In this document: positions 1-7,570 of the stretch, in pieces
Numbering within the stretch: position 1 is the stretch's first letter
How the letters are laid out: the number at the start of each line of letters is the position of its first letter
Source: Negativicoccus succinicivorans
GTDB taxonomy: Bacteria; Bacillota; Negativicutes; Veillonellales; Negativicoccaceae
DNA length: 64,000 bases
Assembly: GCF_014207605.1 (NCBI RefSeq)
Contig: NZ_JACHHI010000002.1
Span: forward strand, 15,005-79,004
Reading direction: 5' to 3'
The notes under the pieces: model-generated
What the model was told of the DNA's origin: nothing
What the model saw: the letters and a program-made list of their open reading frames with translations, nothing else
The model's database searches: none
Translations under genes and position numbers: made by a program

Positions 1-119
1 GGCAGCTTCGTGCTCATGCTCATGTTCTTCTTCGTGAACGGCAGCTTCGTGCTCATGCTCATGTTCTTCTTCGTGAACGGCAGCTTCGTGCTCATGTTCA
101 TGTCCTTCTTCGTGCGCGT
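1..119. repeat. 39-bp in-frame tandem repeat (His-rich coding)
   Basis: Two exact 39-base copies (1-39, 40-78) are followed by a third, diverged copy (79-119). The unit is 13 codons long, so repeat-number changes would keep the minus-strand permease in frame and only alter the length of its His/Glu loop. The array may extend beyond the left edge. Confidence 0.9.
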
Positions 120-783
120 CGGCGGCATGTTCGTGATCATGATCATGATGATGTTCATGCGCTATCCAGACGCTGCGGATATCCGTTAAAACGGCGTGAT
201 CGTACGGGCCTTCCACCGGCGCCAAAATGCCGACGATCGTGTAGGTTTGATCTTTGTGGACATGACCGTGCGCGGTCGCGCCGTGAATGGATTGGAATGT
301 GTCGCCGATTTTAGCGCCCAAAAGTTTCGCGGCGCCGTCGCCGATGACCGCTTCAAAAGGCGCGTTGAAACGGCGGCCCTCTGCGACTTTCAGCCATGGT
401 TCGCTTTGCGGCTTGACGCGATAGTCGAAAATCGTATTTTCGGTGCCGACGATGCGAAAGCCGCGCCAGTTGTCACCGAACGCCAGCGGGATCGCCTGCT
501 TCACCAAAGGATTATTTTTTACATCCTGATAGAGATCGCCGGATATATTACCGATCGGACGGTCTTTCAAATATACCGTGTTGAGTACCAACTGGTTGGC
601 GCTGCCTTTGGCGCCGACGATTTGTGGGAACGGTTCGGTCGCTTTCGTGAGTCCGTAATGCATGCCGAACGAAAGCGCGGCGATAAATACGGAGGAGGCG
701 ATCGCCAGCGCGATTAAAAGTGTCAGCAAAAGCGTTTGCCACGGCCGGTGGCGCAGTTCGCTCCAAGCTATTTGGCGCAGCAT
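1..783 (-). CDS. ABC transporter permease with His-rich loop (partial, C-terminus off the left edge)
   Basis: Reading the minus strand from an ATG at 783 gives 261 open codons to base 1 with no stop, so the 3' part lies outside the window. Residues about 16-38 form a transmembrane helix, followed by a MacB/FtsX-type extracytoplasmic domain (FRIVGTEN, VIGDGAAKLLGAKIGD and TIVGILAP motifs). From about residue 209 the protein becomes a His/Glu/Asp-rich tract with at least 19 His in some 53 residues, built from a 13-residue repeat (HEHEHEAAVHEEE) that continues past the edge. Such tracts bind zinc or nickel in other proteins. The start overlaps the upstream ATPase gene by 16 bases, so the two are probably coupled and form one transporter. 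FtsX/MacB-type permeases usually handle lipoproteins or peptides or work mechanically, so direct metal transport is not shown; the metal link is inference from the loop. Confidence 0.8.
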   Translation of the reverse strand, partial: MLRQIAWSELRHRPWQTLLLTLLIALAIASSVFIAALSFGMHYGLTKATEPFPQIVGAKGSANQLVLNTVYLKDRPIGNISGDLYQDVKNNPLVKQAIPLAFGDNWRGFRIVGTENTIFDYRVKPQSEPWLKVAEGRRFNAPFEAVIGDGAAKLLGAKIGDTFQSIHGATAHGHVHKDQTYTIVGILAPVEGPYDHAVLTDIRSVWIAHEHHHDHDHEHAADAHEEGHEHEHEAAVHEEEHEHEHEAAVHEEEHEHEHEAA

Positions 784-1439
784 AGGCGGCCTCCTTCCAA
801 ACGAATCGTGCCGTCGAGCTTCGCCGCGACGTCTTTATCATGGGTCGCCACAATCAGCGTGGCGCTCGCCGCGCGCGCGCGTTGCTGTAAAAGTTCGATC
901 ACGGCCATACCCGTGGCGCGATCCAGGCTGGCGGTGGGCTCATCGGCGAAAATATAATCAGGATTTTTGATGAGCGCGCGAGCCACCGCTACGCGCTGCT
1001 GTTCTCCCATGCTGAGTTCGCGCGGCAACTGATGACCGCGTTCCGGTAAACCGACCGAGCGCAAAAGTTCTTCCGCCGCGTCGGCACGGTCGCGATCAGA
1101 GGTGCGGGCGAAAAAAGCGCCGGCCAGGATATTATCCCGCGCGCGTAACGTCGGCAATAAAGAAAAGTTTTGCATGACGTAGCCGACATGCGCCGCGCGA
1201 AATTCATCAAGTTGGGATTCACGGCAAGCCGTAAGATCCGTGCCGTCGATCTGAATGACGCCTTCCTGCGCGCGCGTTAACCCCGCCAGTAAGTGCAGTA
1301 ACGTCGACTTGCCGCTGCCGCTGGGACCGACCAATGCCCATTGGCTGCAGTCACCAAGCTCCAGAGCTTCGATCGCCAACACGGTGCGTTCGTGATCGCC
1401 GTCGCGATATGATTTTTTCACATTACGTAAAGTGATCAT
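768..1439 (-). CDS. ABC transporter ATP-binding protein (LolD/MacB type)
   Basis: A 223-residue ABC ATPase with all motifs: Walker A GPSGSGKST at 38-46, Q-loop Gln90, signature LSMGEQQR at 142-149, Walker B YIFADEP at 162-168 and H-loop His200. It belongs to the LolD/MacB/FtsE-like group that pairs with FtsX-fold permeases, in line with the overlapping downstream gene. A Shine-Dalgarno AGGAAGGAA precedes the ATG. It is third in a minus-strand operon after the alkaline phosphatase and the small exported protein; 10 bases separate it from the latter. It should power the His-rich permease from the cytoplasmic side. The substrate is unknown. Confidence 0.92.
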   Translation of the reverse strand: MITLRNVKKSYRDGDHERTVLAIEALELGDCSQWALVGPSGSGKSTLLHLLAGLTRAQEGVIQIDGTDLTACRESQLDEFRAAHVGYVMQNFSLLPTLRARDNILAGAFFARTSDRDRADAAEELLRSVGLPERGHQLPRELSMGEQQRVAVARALIKNPDYIFADEPTASLDRATGMAVIELLQQRARAASATLIVATHDKDVAAKLDGTIRLEGGRLCCAK

Positions 1440-1449
1440 AAATTCCTTC

Positions 1450-1899
1450 CTATTGCGCGTTAACGCTGTAGGCGTTAATGCGAACTAATGATACAAAGCC
1501 CGTTTCCGCGTCGACCGCCGAACCGAGTTCGAGCGAACCGCGCACCGTGATAGGCGCGTCAAAAGGCAACGCGACAACGGGTTCCTGTAATTTTACGACA
1601 ACGATATTATTCGGCCAATCGGCGTCTGTCGAACAGAACGGACAAACAGACATCGGCACTTCCGTCAACACGAAAAAATTAATGGTCGGCGTTAACGGCG
1701 GGGCCATAAAGCCTGTCATCTCCACTTCCTGCCCGGCGAGACTTTGCAAATAATCGGACAAAACCAAGCCGCGAACGGTAGAGCCCGCGTACATTTGCCC
1801 AAAAGAAAGCGAAGCAGCGGCGTGAACTACTCCGCTGCTTGCTCCTAAAGCCACAACCAGAGCAAGAACGAGATGCAATAATTGACGTTGCATGGTCAT
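1450..1899 (-). CDS. small exported protein with CPFC motif (DUF3299-like)
   Basis: 149 residues with an N-terminal signal peptide (hydrophobic about 8-27, cleavage likely after VHA). The mature part reads like a small beta-barrel/OB-type domain: a GQEVEMTGFMAPP segment, then VPMSVCPFCS with Cys86 and Cys89, then PNNIVVVKL. This resembles DUF3299-type periplasmic proteins that occur beside ABC ATPase/permease pairs; the assignment is from memory of the family. The CxxC pair could bind a metal or be redox-active. It lies 24 bases after the alkaline phosphatase and 10 before the ATPase, so it is probably a periplasmic partner of the transporter. Confidence 0.65.
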   Translation of the reverse strand: MTMQRQLLHLVLALVVALGASSGVVHAAASLSFGQMYAGSTVRGLVLSDYLQSLAGQEVEMTGFMAPPLTPTINFFVLTEVPMSVCPFCSTDADWPNNIVVVKLQEPVVALPFDAPITVRGSLELGSAVDAETGFVSLVRINAYSVNAQ

Positions 1900-1923
1900 G
1901 CTCCTCTCGTACTATGTTGTTTG

Positions 1924-3789
1924 TTACTTCGTTGCGTCAATACCCAGAGCGCGCATGATCGCAAAGAAGATTTCGGTGTTGTCCATCAGACCGTGGAACT
2001 CTTCCGAGCCCGGACCGCCGGCCATGACGACGATGTCATCCGCGGAGTGGACTTCCTGCGTTTCCTTGGTCGAAGGCAACGAACCTTCAATGTAGCGAGC
2101 GCCTTTCGGTGCGCGATACGGGTTGCCGATAATCTTGCCGTTTTCGCCGGTAATCGCCGGTGACGTCGGTTTCGCTTGGAAGCGATAGTTTTCGTAGTGA
2201 TCCGGGAAGTTGGCGTATTGCAGAGCGAGCGTTACGTCAGCATCGGGATCATCCGGGTAGCCGTCGGCGTTGCGGTCCACGAATGTCGGCCAGCCGGCTT
2301 CCGCGTACGTGCGAACCGCGTCGCGACCTTTCACGCCGTCATGTTCGTGGTACGTGCCGGTCAGCGATACGCCGTGCGAGTGGTCGGCAATGACGACGAT
2401 CAAGGTATCGTCGCCGTTGGCTTTCGCCCAGTCGGTGGCGTAGGCTACGGCCTGGTCCAATTCGATCGTGTCGTAGGCGGCGCGCTGCCAATCCATCGTG
2501 TGCAACTGTTTATCAATGCAGGCGCCTTCGGACATCAGGTAGAAGCCGTTCGGGTTTTTCGAGAGAATATCGATCGCTTTCGCGGTCATTTCAATCAAGT
2601 TCGGCTGATCCGGGAAGTTTTTCAGAACTTCCGGATTCTTTTTGAATTCACGATCCATGTAGACGTTCATATGGTTCATCGTGAAGAGGCCGAGCAGGGG
2701 TTTATTGTCGTTGGCCGCCAACATTTCCTGACGGTTGCCGGCGAATTGGAAACCCGCTTTTTCAAAATCGGCGATGACGTTCTGTTCGTCTTTCCGTTTT
2801 GAACCGTTGGTGGAAAGCGGCAGGAAGAACTGCGCGCCGCCGCCGAGGATGACATCCGGACGATGGTATTCGGCGAGGTAGTCGGCGGCGATCGCCGGCT
2901 GTTCCGCGCGACGACGGGTGTGGGCAGTTACCGCGGCCGGTGTCGCGTCCGTAATGGCGGCCGTGGATACGATGCCGACGCCCATATCTTTGGTGCGTTT
3001 AACAATCTCGGCAATCGTTTCGACTTTCGGATCGTCCAGCGGATCTTTGGTGCGGTTTTCATACACGCCCATCGCGTTGACGACGGATTTGTGCCCTGTA
3101 TTGTAGGCCGATGCCGAGTTCGCGGAGTCGGTGACCAGCGAGTCATAACCCGACGTGGTGACAAAGGCCATGTTCGGCAAGTTTTCCATGGACAGATGAC
3201 CGTTGTAGCGGCCTTCGTAAATCCCTTTGGAAAGAATGCGCGCCGCTTCTTTGATCTGCGGGCTCATGCCGTCGCCGACAAAGAGGATGACGTTTTTCGC
3301 TTTTTTCTTCGCCTTTTCATCGACTACTTTGTAGTTGATTTGGCGTTTGAGCGCGCCTTTGGAAGTATTGGCGGCGACAGCGATGTCGATTTCGCCGCGC
3401 GCTTTGAAGCTGACGTTGTCGATCCGGTACGACGTGTAGTCGTCATGTACCGTAATCACCGGCTTTTTGCCGAAGTATTTAGCGGCGTCTTTGCCGTTGA
3501 CGGTGATGTTTAACGCCGTCGGATTATTGCCGTTGACTTCGACTTCAAAGTCAAAGCGTTGCCCCTTTAAAAACTTCGCCTGATCGATCGGCATGATCGC
3601 GATTCCCGTGCGGGCCGCGCTGCGGGATGCGAGCTTTTGACCGTGCTGCCAGTCCGCTTTGGCCTGCTGCGACATGTAAGTCGGCATCGGTTGGGATGCG
3701 AAACTTACGTCGGCGGGCATCGCCAACGAGAAAATTCCCGCGGCCAGGAACAGGCGCAAGGTGCATTTGGTAATACTGCGTGAGTTCAT
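1924..3789 (-). CDS. alkaline phosphatase, exported
   Basis: 621 residues with a signal peptide (hydrophobic about 11-25, cleavage near Ala31). An extra beta-rich domain of roughly 115 residues precedes the catalytic domain, which opens at VILFVGDGMSPQ (metal ligand Asp173). The nucleophile is predicted to be Ser222 in VTDSANSASAYNTG, and ADHSHGV further on supplies a His metal ligand. These are hallmarks of the PhoA superfamily, which uses two Zn and one Mg ion to hydrolyse phosphomonoesters outside the cytoplasmic membrane. GGGGAGG lies just upstream of the ATG. It is the first gene of a four-gene operon with the His-rich ABC system, which suggests shared zinc physiology or phosphate control; neither a Pho box nor a Zur box could be assigned confidently. 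Confidence 0.92.
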   Translation of the reverse strand: MNSRSITKCTLRLFLAAGIFSLAMPADVSFASQPMPTYMSQQAKADWQHGQKLASRSAARTGIAIMPIDQAKFLKGQRFDFEVEVNGNNPTALNITVNGKDAAKYFGKKPVITVHDDYTSYRIDNVSFKARGEIDIAVAANTSKGALKRQINYKVVDEKAKKKAKNVILFVGDGMSPQIKEAARILSKGIYEGRYNGHLSMENLPNMAFVTTSGYDSLVTDSANSASAYNTGHKSVVNAMGVYENRTKDPLDDPKVETIAEIVKRTKDMGVGIVSTAAITDATPAAVTAHTRRRAEQPAIAADYLAEYHRPDVILGGGAQFFLPLSTNGSKRKDEQNVIADFEKAGFQFAGNRQEMLAANDNKPLLGLFTMNHMNVYMDREFKKNPEVLKNFPDQPNLIEMTAKAIDILSKNPNGFYLMSEGACIDKQLHTMDWQRAAYDTIELDQAVAYATDWAKANGDDTLIVVIADHSHGVSLTGTYHEHDGVKGRDAVRTYAEAGWPTFVDRNADGYPDDPDADVTLALQYANFPDHYENYRFQAKPTSPAITGENGKIIGNPYRAPKGARYIEGSLPSTKETQEVHSADDIVVMAGGPGSEEFHGLMDNTEIFFAIMRALGIDATK

Positions 3790-3803
3790 AGTAACCTCCC
3801 CTT

Positions 3804-3839
3804 AATGGAAAATCCATTTTAGCTAAACGTATAATAGCA
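3804..3839 (-). promoter_or_regulatory. extended -10 promoter and small palindrome upstream of alkaline phosphatase
   Basis: On the minus strand TGC-TATTAT (3839-3831) forms an extended -10 about 40 bases before the ATG; no good -35 is visible. Downstream of it AATGGA-AAA-TCCATT (3804-3818) is a short perfect inverted repeat in the predicted leader, a candidate operator or small hairpin. The function of the palindrome is a guess. Confidence 0.4.
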
Positions 3840-4005
3840 ATCTGTCACCAAAATACGGTAAATTTTTCGCCGTTTCTGTGTAAACCTGAATGAGTATTCA
3901 AAAATGTTTTGTTTTCGCCGGAGACAGCGCGAATTTCCGCAATGATTTACGCAAGGGGAGAACAGCATTAACCAAAAAATGTATTGTTTTGTAAAATCCG
4001 CGTAA

Positions 4006-4036
4006 GCAAAAAGGCAGTCCGAGGACTGCCTTTTAT
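4006..4036 (-). terminator. rho-independent terminator of the alcohol dehydrogenase gene
   Basis: AAAGGCAGTCC-GA-GGACTGCCTTT forms a strong stem; on the minus strand it is followed by a T run. It lies 10 bases after the stop codon of the leftward alcohol dehydrogenase gene. Confidence 0.85.
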
Positions 4037-5347: not shown

Positions 5348-6040
5348 ATGAATATTTATTTATTGGCCCACAGCGGCGTCGCGCTGGAAACGGACGACCG
5401 CGTGTTGGTGTTTGATCCCTGGCAAGATCCCGAAAACCATTTGAAAAGGTTGGCGCGGACGGAAAAACCTTTGTATTTTTTTGTCACGCATGCGCACGGC
5501 GATCATTTCGCACCGCGCTACGGGAAAGAATACGGCGAACGCGCGGCCCGTTTCGTGCTGGAAAACGATTGCCGCGATGCGGCGTATCCCGCGGCGAAAA
5601 CGGATTATGTCGGCGCGGGCGATACGTTGACGCTCGATGATATGACGATCCGCGTGTACGGCTCGACGGACGCGGGCGCGTCGTACCATGTGAGTTGGCC
5701 GGAACTGAGCGTGTTTCACGCGGGCGATTTGAACTGGTGGCATTGGACCGGCGATACGGACGCGGCGAATCGGGACATGCGCGCGCTTTTCTTCCGCGAA
5801 CTTGCGCCCGCGGTCGAACATGGCGCGGATATTGTTTTCTTCCCGGTCGATGATCGCCAAGGTCCGGCGCAGGAATGGGGCGTCATTGAATATTTGCAAA
5901 AGCAGACGCCGGCGCGTTTATTGGTGCCGATCCATCGCAACGGCGCGCCGTGGCAACCGTCACTGTATTTTTCCTGGCGTTTTGCCGATGTCGCGGTCTG
6001 GACGGGTCTCACCGACGGCGATGTGCGTAAAGGAGTGTAA
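5348..6040 (+). CDS. metallo-beta-lactamase-fold hydrolase
   Basis: About 230 residues from the ATG at 5348, chosen because GGAG at 5339-5342 is correctly spaced; an in-frame start at 5297 would add 17 unconvincing residues. THAHGDHF is the HxHxDH metal-binding motif of the metallo-beta-lactamase fold. FHAGDLNWWHW supplies the later metal Asp, and PIHRNG a C-terminal His. The pattern matches UlaG/RomA-like cytoplasmic members that act on phosphoesters or lactones; the substrate is unknown. The stop codon is one base before the next start, so it is cotranscribed with the small membrane protein and the two DUF445 genes. Confidence 0.85.
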   Translation: MNIYLLAHSGVALETDDRVLVFDPWQDPENHLKRLARTEKPLYFFVTHAHGDHFAPRYGKEYGERAARFVLENDCRDAAYPAAKTDYVGAGDTLTLDDMTIRVYGSTDAGASYHVSWPELSVFHAGDLNWWHWTGDTDAANRDMRALFFRELAPAVEHGADIVFFPVDDRQGPAQEWGVIEYLQKQTPARLLVPIHRNGAPWQPSLYFSWRFADVAVWTGLTDGDVRKGV

Positions 6041-6041
6041 G

Positions 6042-6335
6042 ATGACAAACAGTTGGTTATATATTCTGGTCGTCATGCTGGCCGGAAGTTTTATTATTCA
6101 TATGTACCCGACGCTGGTCGTGGCGATCGGCGTCAACGTGGGTATTTTTATCGCGAGCTATTTTATTTTGCGGCGCGATCCGCGCGTGGATATGCGGGCG
6201 GGCATGCTGTTTATTTTCGGTTTGACGGTGATTAATATTTTGGCGGCGCTCGGCTGGATGTCGAGCATGATGGCCAACCTCGCCTTTATCGCGCTCTTTA
6301 TCTGGTCGATGGCGGGCGGCGGCAGGAGTCGTTGA
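6042..6335 (+). CDS. small integral membrane protein
   Basis: 97 residues with three predicted transmembrane helices (about 5-22, 26-43 and 55-92, the last possibly a hairpin) and a basic segment RRDPRVD between them. The start follows AAAGGAG. Its stop overlaps the start of the first DUF445 gene (ATGA), which implies translational coupling. I do not recognise a family. It may help anchor or assemble the DUF445 proteins, but that is only from position. Confidence 0.7.
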   Translation: MTNSWLYILVVMLAGSFIIHMYPTLVVAIGVNVGIFIASYFILRRDPRVDMRAGMLFIFGLTVINILAALGWMSSMMANLAFIALFIWSMAGGGRSR

Positions 6336-7570
6336 TGACGCGTCGAAGGATCGCGACGGGCACGCTTTTGTTGTGTGCTGTCATCGTGCTTTCCTGCTAC
6401 CCCGCGCGATTTACGTTTTGGGGCGGTTTTGGCGTGCATACGGCACTGGCGGCATTAGTGGGCGGTCTGGCGGATTGGTACGCCGTGACCGCCCTTTTTC
6501 GTCGTCCTCTGGGGATTCCGTGGCAAACGGAGTGGTTGCCGCGCAGCCGAGAAAAAATCATGACGATGGCGGGCACGATGGTTAAAGATGAATTGTTGAC
6601 GCCGCGTCATCTCTATCGGGCGCTGAAGGCGCATTCTCCGTTGCCGTACCTGCTCACGCTTTGGGAACGCGATACGGAACGCTTTGTTCGGGCGCTTACA
6701 ACGCTTTTTGAAACCCTTCCCGACGGCCTTTCGCCGGATCTTTTGCAGCATGAATGGGAGCCGCTGCGTAAGCGGATTTTGACCGCGCAATGGCCGGCGG
6801 ATGTCGCGGCGGAAGCGTTATTGCTCTGGCAAAAGGAAGGCAATGCGAGCGGTCGCGAACGATTGGCGCAATGGTTGCAGTCGCGCATTAACGCGGCGCC
6901 GACGGCGGAATTTTTAACCGCGCAATACGAGCAATTCATGACGCTTTTGGCGGCGAAACATCCCGTGCGCGCGAAACTTTGGCAGGAAGCGTTGCGCACG
7001 CAGGGAGAAACGCCGAGTACTGTCGGCGTCTTCTTGCAGGAACGACTGGCCCGCGCCGCGGCGGATTTGGCTCAGCCGATGACGACGATCGGCGCGGCGT
7101 TTGACGACATGGTGACGATGGCGGTCACGCGCCTGCAAAATGATCGGCGTTTGCGTCAGCAAATTACGGACGCGGTCGCGCCGCTTTTGGCGACCAACAT
7201 ACCGACGGACAGTCAGGTTGTATTTGATCTGATTGTTACGCCGAAGCGTCGTCACGCGTTTGCGCAGACGCTCGCGACATTGGCGGTACGATGGCTCACC
7301 GCGGCGCGGCAGGATCCGGCGCGGATTCGTAAGTTGGAGCGGCTGCTCTTTGTGACGCTTGCCAAAATGTTGCCGCTGGTGCAGCCGTATTTCGGGACAT
7401 GGGCGCAGGCGGCGTTGGCGCCGTACAGCGCGCGCGAACTCTCCGACTTGATCGAAGCCAAAGTCAGTGACGATTTACAGATGATTCGACTCAACGGCAC
7501 GCTGATCGGCGGCGTGCTGGGCGCGGTTTTCTATGTGCTCGGGCACGCGATGTTGGGAGGCGGGTTCTGA
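6335..7570 (+). CDS. DUF445 family membrane protein, copy 1
   Basis: About 411 residues from the ATG at 6335. A TTG at 6332 is in frame, but GGCAGGAG is better spaced for the ATG. A hydrophobic N-terminus is followed by GGLADWYAVTALFRRPLGIPW, the DUF445 (YheB/YjiN-like) signature, then a long helical, charged middle and a C-terminal helix preceded by the family motif IRLNGTLIGGVLG. DUF445 proteins are membrane proteins of unknown role; YheB is linked to spore or envelope membranes in Bacillus. The stop overlaps the next start by one base. Confidence 0.88.
   Translation: MTRRRIATGTLLLCAVIVLSCYPARFTFWGGFGVHTALAALVGGLADWYAVTALFRRPLGIPWQTEWLPRSREKIMTMAGTMVKDELLTPRHLYRALKAHSPLPYLLTLWERDTERFVRALTTLFETLPDGLSPDLLQHEWEPLRKRILTAQWPADVAAEALLLWQKEGNASGRERLAQWLQSRINAAPTAEFLTAQYEQFMTLLAAKHPVRAKLWQEALRTQGETPSTVGVFLQERLARAAADLAQPMTTIGAAFDDMVTMAVTRLQNDRRLRQQITDAVAPLLATNIPTDSQVVFDLIVTPKRRHAFAQTLATLAVRWLTAARQDPARIRKLERLLFVTLAKMLPLVQPYFGTWAQAALAPYSARELSDLIEAKVSDDLQMIRLNGTLIGGVLGAVFYVLGHAMLGGGF

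Follow-up and report, generated by a model that had tools for sequence, protein, structure and literature searches.

The alkaline phosphatase gene of Negativicoccus succinicivorans lies in a cassette together with genes for a small exported protein carrying a CPFC motif, an ABC ATPase and a ZrgB-like permease, and we put at roughly 0.5 the probability that this cassette is a zinc-handling module for PhoA, that is, a phosphatase-linked version of the Zrg system which serves under phosphate scarcity. It is poorly known how alkaline phosphatase and other exported zinc enzymes acquire their metal, and the way in which a MacB-type protein such as ZrgB could move zinc is unexplained. The cassette links a transporter of the ZrgB type with a single exported zinc enzyme, which provides a candidate client together with an easy enzyme assay and makes both questions testable, and it joins phosphate starvation and zinc supply within one operon. 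Word searches of the open-access literature, with subscription journals mostly outside their reach, returned no description of such a cassette.

Gene Organization and the Assembly Gap

The window, i.e., the whole stretch of 64,000 nucleotides that was analysed, carries the four genes on the minus strand, and all of them are present as the first-pass annotation had placed them, both as open reading frames and by Pfam. The first is phoA (1924–3789), which encodes a PhoA-type alkaline phosphatase that carries a Sec-type signal and additional N-terminal sequence (Alk_phosphatase, 3e-79). It is followed after 24 nt by the gene of the small exported protein, a ZrgE/DUF3299-like OB-fold protein (1450–1899), and after a further 10 nt by the gene of a LolD/MacB-type ABC ATPase (768–1439; ABC_tran, 3e-32), the end of which overlaps by 16 nt the start of its partner, the ZrgB-like FtsX/MacB-type permease (1–783; MacB_PCD, 2e-11, and FtsX, 3e-11). 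A putative operon promoter region (3790–4008, minus strand) precedes phoA, and a terminator-like hairpin at 4009–4034 parts phoA from the upstream dehydrogenase gene. Only codons 1–261 of about 519 of the permease lie in the window, because the assembly has a gap of 97 N directly before the window start (L004:9909-10005), within a run of 39-bp His/Glu repeats. The missing 3' end was located outside the window: the complete reading frame in the genome comprises 519 codons, including 33 X, with the remainder on G000:C2 (L004:9229-10005), and a terminator-like hairpin of 14 pairs (L004:9213-9181) stands directly behind its stop codon. Since hairpins lie on both sides of the unit, the predicted operon appears to consist of exactly phoA, the CPFC gene, the ATPase gene and the permease gene, and nothing more; terminator-like hairpins are only slightly more numerous in the whole region than in shuffled sequence.

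The repeats at the window edge (1–114, minus strand; 2.9 copies, 97% match) encode 13-residue units rich in His and Glu, located in the loop that follows H209 of the permease. Beyond the gap, 2.5 further copies continue in an unchanged 39-bp register, and the length of the gap itself preserves this register (5 units apart). Permease residues 209–261, encoded by the repeat, contain 19 His in 53 positions, as the earlier estimate of at least 19 in about 53 had it, as well as 22 Asp/Glu. The closest relative, Negativicoccus massiliensis, is free of a gap here and has a 75-residue loop with 20 His.

The Permease and Its Relationship to ZrgB

The predicted model of the permease has the MacB/LolC fold, with four transmembrane helices and a MacB-like extracytoplasmic domain, and places the His-rich loop, disordered in the model, between transmembrane helices 1 and 2, so that the loop does lie in the extracytoplasmic part to which it had first been assigned. 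A full-length profile of the cassette permeases scores 147–188 bits against seven ZrgB proteins, defined here as permeases that adjoin ZrgA genes and often also have zur or COG0523 genes close by. The same profile reaches only 8–11 bits with E. coli LolC, LolE and MacB, and in contrast to MacB and LolCDE (type VII ABC), with which the fold, the helix number and the extracytoplasmic domain are shared, the cassette operon has neither a MacA gene nor a second permease. Assignment as a LolC/LolE orthologue was rejected, as TIGR02212 gives a score of 35 vs. a cut-off of 362 and the cassette profile 10–11 bits. In the permease tree, which includes one mistranslated sequence (L136) that we disregard, the PhoA-linked set stands apart from ZrgB and the outgroups with a support of 0.955. 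Judged by these profile scores and by the neighbouring clades, a ZrgB-type MacB-like permease, which is a feature of the Zrg system, is present in the cassette, and the nearest sequence group of the PhoA-linked permease is ZrgB of ZrgABCDE. The ZrgB of this zinc-regulated system has been described as MacB-like (PMC9820375, PMC9817125). The initial remark, that the classic metal importers do not include proteins of the FtsX/MacB type, holds for the classic families, but ZrgB, being MacB-like and part of a zinc system, offers a precedent.

Two His residues are invariant in 48 PhoA-linked and 6 ZrgB permeases, namely H167 in an HG motif (codon at 283–285, minus strand) and H209 (codon at 157–159, minus strand). 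The column of H176 (codon at 256–258, minus strand) holds His in 25 of the 48 PhoA-linked rows and in 6/6 ZrgB, and in the remaining PhoA-linked rows the His is often displaced by one residue. The loop behaves differently from the invariant pair. His/acid-rich loops occur at one shared place in Negativicoccaceae, Taylorella, Rhizobiales and Sporomusaceae, and are very rich in His in Taylorella, rich in Negativicoccaceae and many Rhizobiales, and moderately so in Sporomusaceae; Dialister and some Veillonella have no His-rich loop and keep the cassette. Being hypervariable and absent in several lineages, the loop is thus an accessory element and not part of the conserved core. The permease of Taylorella asinigenitalis (L047) contains 58 His.

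The CPFC Protein and the Phosphatase

The small exported protein belongs to no Pfam family, and its profile gives only short matches to unrelated chains in the PDB. Its structural model, a predicted OB fold, is best matched in the PDB, by both aligners, to PA4066 of Pseudomonas, a DUF3299/ZrgE protein (Foldseek 8e-6; Z 10.7 over 114 residues). By sequence, DUF3299 was matched neither by the window protein nor elsewhere in its genome; two relatives match it at E of about 0.03, and hhalign gives E 0.001 with a probability of 20%. These sequence links between the CPFC protein and DUF3299 are weak, but they agree with the fold match. The CPFC motif itself (C86–C89; 1633–1644, minus strand) is invariant in 67 relatives.

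In the phosphatase, the catalytic Ser and the zinc and magnesium ligands are present: D173, S222, T283, E421, D426, H430, D469, H470 and H581 are invariant in 16 relatives and align to solved PhoA, and from positions matched to E. coli PhoA we take them to correspond to its nucleophile and metal ligands. The catalytic domain and metal ligands are shared with the E. coli enzyme, whereas in the window protein about 140 residues precede this domain, and its operon also contains ABC genes. The signal peptide, inspected by eye, has no lipobox, and the release of PhoA as a lipoprotein was therefore rated low.

Distribution of the Cassette

Of 60 sampled relatives, 16 have the CPFC protein, and the order phoA, CPFC gene, ATPase, permease is kept in 16/16. 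A wider scan, over one genome per species, detected 341 relatives; in the best 80, some of which share a genome, phoA lies directly upstream in 80/80 and all four genes are present in 77/80. The three incomplete loci are two at a contig edge (L066, L104) and one that looks broken or misassembled (L056). The cassette ranges over Negativicutes, Synergistaceae, Betaproteobacteria, Rhizobiales and metagenome-assembled genomes labelled Planctomycetes and Deltaproteobacteria. In a separate alphaproteobacterial sample, the CPFC protein occurs in 8 of 289 genomes: three loci (L168, L169, L171) adjoin an alkaline phosphatase, with the ATPase gene rearranged in L168, two contigs are too short to judge, and the two weakest matches are without a phosphatase. 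The same PhoA type occurs without the ABC cassette in six genomes (L146–L151) that belong to a single genus, probably Megasphaera, so PhoA has no strict need of it. In the tree, the permeases of T. asinigenitalis and of a member of the Alcaligenaceae (L059) cluster with those of Negativicoccaceae (support 0.998), and this grouping suggests that the cassette has passed between Betaproteobacteria and Negativicutes. One cassette, in a record titled Bacillus subtilis SK6B4 (L111), is Brucella/Ochrobactrum-like, and that assembly is probably mislabelled or contaminated.

Regulation

In a box search for control by Zur, as expected for a zinc-linked operon, no Zur-like palindrome was seen before phoA in Rhizobiales or in Negativicoccus, whose Zur motif may differ, and several lineages have phosphate-starvation boxes instead. 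In 22 Rhizobiales loci, a PhoB-box match lies on the strand of the gene, 134–150 bases before a conserved PhoA motif, and at most 2.6% of same-locus control windows score as high in 21 of them (6.4% in L100); outside Rhizobiales, scoring for the PhoB box (7-4-7) gave no consistent site. PhoP-type boxes, TTWACA-N5-TTWACA, are found in Sporomusaceae (8/8) and Synergistaceae, above both reversed and scrambled controls, and in Veillonella at a constant −104, with a reversed control nearly as high. In several lineages the cassette thus looks to be under phosphate-starvation control, not under Zur. Negativicoccaceae and Dialister-like loci have no clear Pho box, and none is significant in the phoA promoter of the window. 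The N. succinicivorans genome encodes pst, phoU and phoB/phoR-like genes and has a perfect TTTACA-N5-TTTACA before pstS; its TTWACA repeat count of 27, below the control value of 48, is uninformative apart from that site. Negativicoccus itself may share the Pho control of the other lineages.

Comparison with Known Zinc Systems

ZrgABCDE of Vibrio cholerae and PA4063–PA4066 of Pseudomonas aeruginosa resemble the cassette in having a ZrgB-group permease and an ABC ATPase, and H167 and H209 of the permease are common to both; ZrgE (DUF3299), their exported OB-fold protein, probably has its counterpart in the CPFC protein, going by the predicted fold. Unlike Zrg, the cassette has no ZrgA: the model for this protein (DUF2796, PF10986) finds no match in the N. 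succinicivorans genome or in 15 cassette genomes, and among 143 genomes belonging to another class it detects ZrgA above cut-off in 14. The His-rich stretch lies inside the cassette permease, where it may take the place of a separate ZrgA-type binding protein. In V. cholerae, the His-rich loop of ZrgA adds zinc sites and is not essential (PMC9820375), and the permease loop is like it in being both His-rich and accessory. The small proteins differ too, with CPFC in the cassette where Zrg has an ACIHxPPPP motif, and so do the linked genes, since the partner of the cassette is phoA, with Pho boxes in several lineages, while Zrg is tied to zur and Zur boxes. The cassette probably works like Zrg and is related to it; we do not count it as a member because ZrgA is missing, the linked gene is another one, and the regulon in several lineages is different. 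With ZnuABC the cassette shares a putative zinc function and the presence of His-rich loops, but the two differ in their permease and binding-protein families, and ZnuA proteins are encoded elsewhere in the same genome.

Proposed Function and Alternative Explanations

The link to zinc that was proposed at the outset stands in so far as the permease is of the ZrgB type, the small protein has a ZrgE-type fold and the zinc ligands of PhoA are intact; the His-rich loop is not a conserved core feature. According to the mechanism we propose, each active site of the exported PhoA should require two Zn and one Mg, as is usual in its family. The permease and ATPase would form a MacB-type (type VII) ABC machine, the extracytoplasmic domain of which would collect zinc through the conserved His residues and, in many species, also through the His/Asp/Glu-rich loop. 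The OB-fold CPFC protein would be the periplasmic partner of this machine, and ATP hydrolysis would drive the handover of the metal, most likely to supply PhoA in the periplasm under phosphate scarcity. That zinc is the ligand, that its flow serves PhoA, the direction of transport, and Pho control in Negativicoccus itself are points that we infer. In favour of a zinc module for PhoA speak the conserved gene order, the kinship to ZrgB with the two invariant His, the fold match of the CPFC protein, the His/acid-rich loops, the Pho boxes of several lineages and the aid that zrg genes give to growth of V. cholerae in low zinc (PMC9820375). A distant CPxC relative (L173:4974-5429, minus strand), encoded divergently to a ZnuA zinc-binding protein (5621-6544, plus strand), points the same way. 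The absence of ZrgA, the lack of the loop in several lineages, the Megasphaera-like genomes with this PhoA type and no cassette, the ZnuA-type proteins of the genome and the want of a clear Pho box in Negativicoccaceae and Dialister-like loci argue against it. The L173 relative is also located beside a NicO transporter, and a phosphatase is absent there.

The main rival to a supply of zinc to PhoA is import to the cytoplasm, as has been proposed for Zrg; a system of that kind would not directly feed a periplasmic enzyme. The cassette would then be a Zrg-like importer, placed in the phosphate-starvation regulon since PhoA drains periplasmic zinc; it would replenish the zinc of the cytoplasm, and PhoA would remain unserved. 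The homology to ZrgB and the fact that zrg genes aid growth of V. cholerae in low zinc speak for it (PMC9820375; for the system also PMC9817125), but the cassette has no ZrgA-type binding protein, no Zur site was seen, classical ZnuA-type proteins are encoded in the genome, and the tight linkage is to phoA and not to zur or znu genes, so we regard this explanation as unlikely. A somewhat poorer prospect is that the ABC unit is a device for the maturation or release of PhoA, acting in folding, disulphide formation or membrane release, with CPFC as a redox or holdase site and the metal incidental. Fold relatives such as LolCDE (type VII ABC) do handle proteins on the membrane's outer face, CPFC is invariant and resembles a redox CxxC, and the linkage is to PhoA alone. 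Against it, the OB fold of the CPFC protein is nearest to DUF3299 and is not a thioredoxin fold, the phosphatase signal lacks a visible lipobox, and the closest permease family is tied to zinc. That the unit moves an organic phosphate, as product or substrate of the phosphatase, would fit the Pho boxes and the linkage to phoA but is the most doubtful proposal, as the His-rich loops and the kinship to ZrgB suggest a metal and, to our knowledge, such small-molecule uptake is not established for MacB-type permeases.

The supply of zinc to PhoA could also be part of a wider scheme, which we advance tentatively and with a good deal of doubt, in which the Zrg core (ZrgB, ATPase and ZrgE-type protein) does not import zinc but allocates it in the periplasm, loading exported metalloenzymes; here it would be dedicated to PhoA and, in several lineages, recruited to Pho control. 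If this were true, the cassette would be an ATP-driven metallation system devoted to one secreted enzyme.

ZnuA-Type Proteins of the Genome

Two ZnuA-type binding proteins are encoded in the N. succinicivorans genome. One (G000:C2, near 119911-120900; L152:2412-3401) likewise carries a long loop rich in His and Asp, and the 6 kb read showed neither a permease nor an ATPase gene next to its own. The other (G000:C4:128268 region; L153) has an ATPase gene and two permease genes alongside, and its promoter contains a perfect palindrome, TGAAAATCATTTTCA, which is perhaps a Fur-family site.
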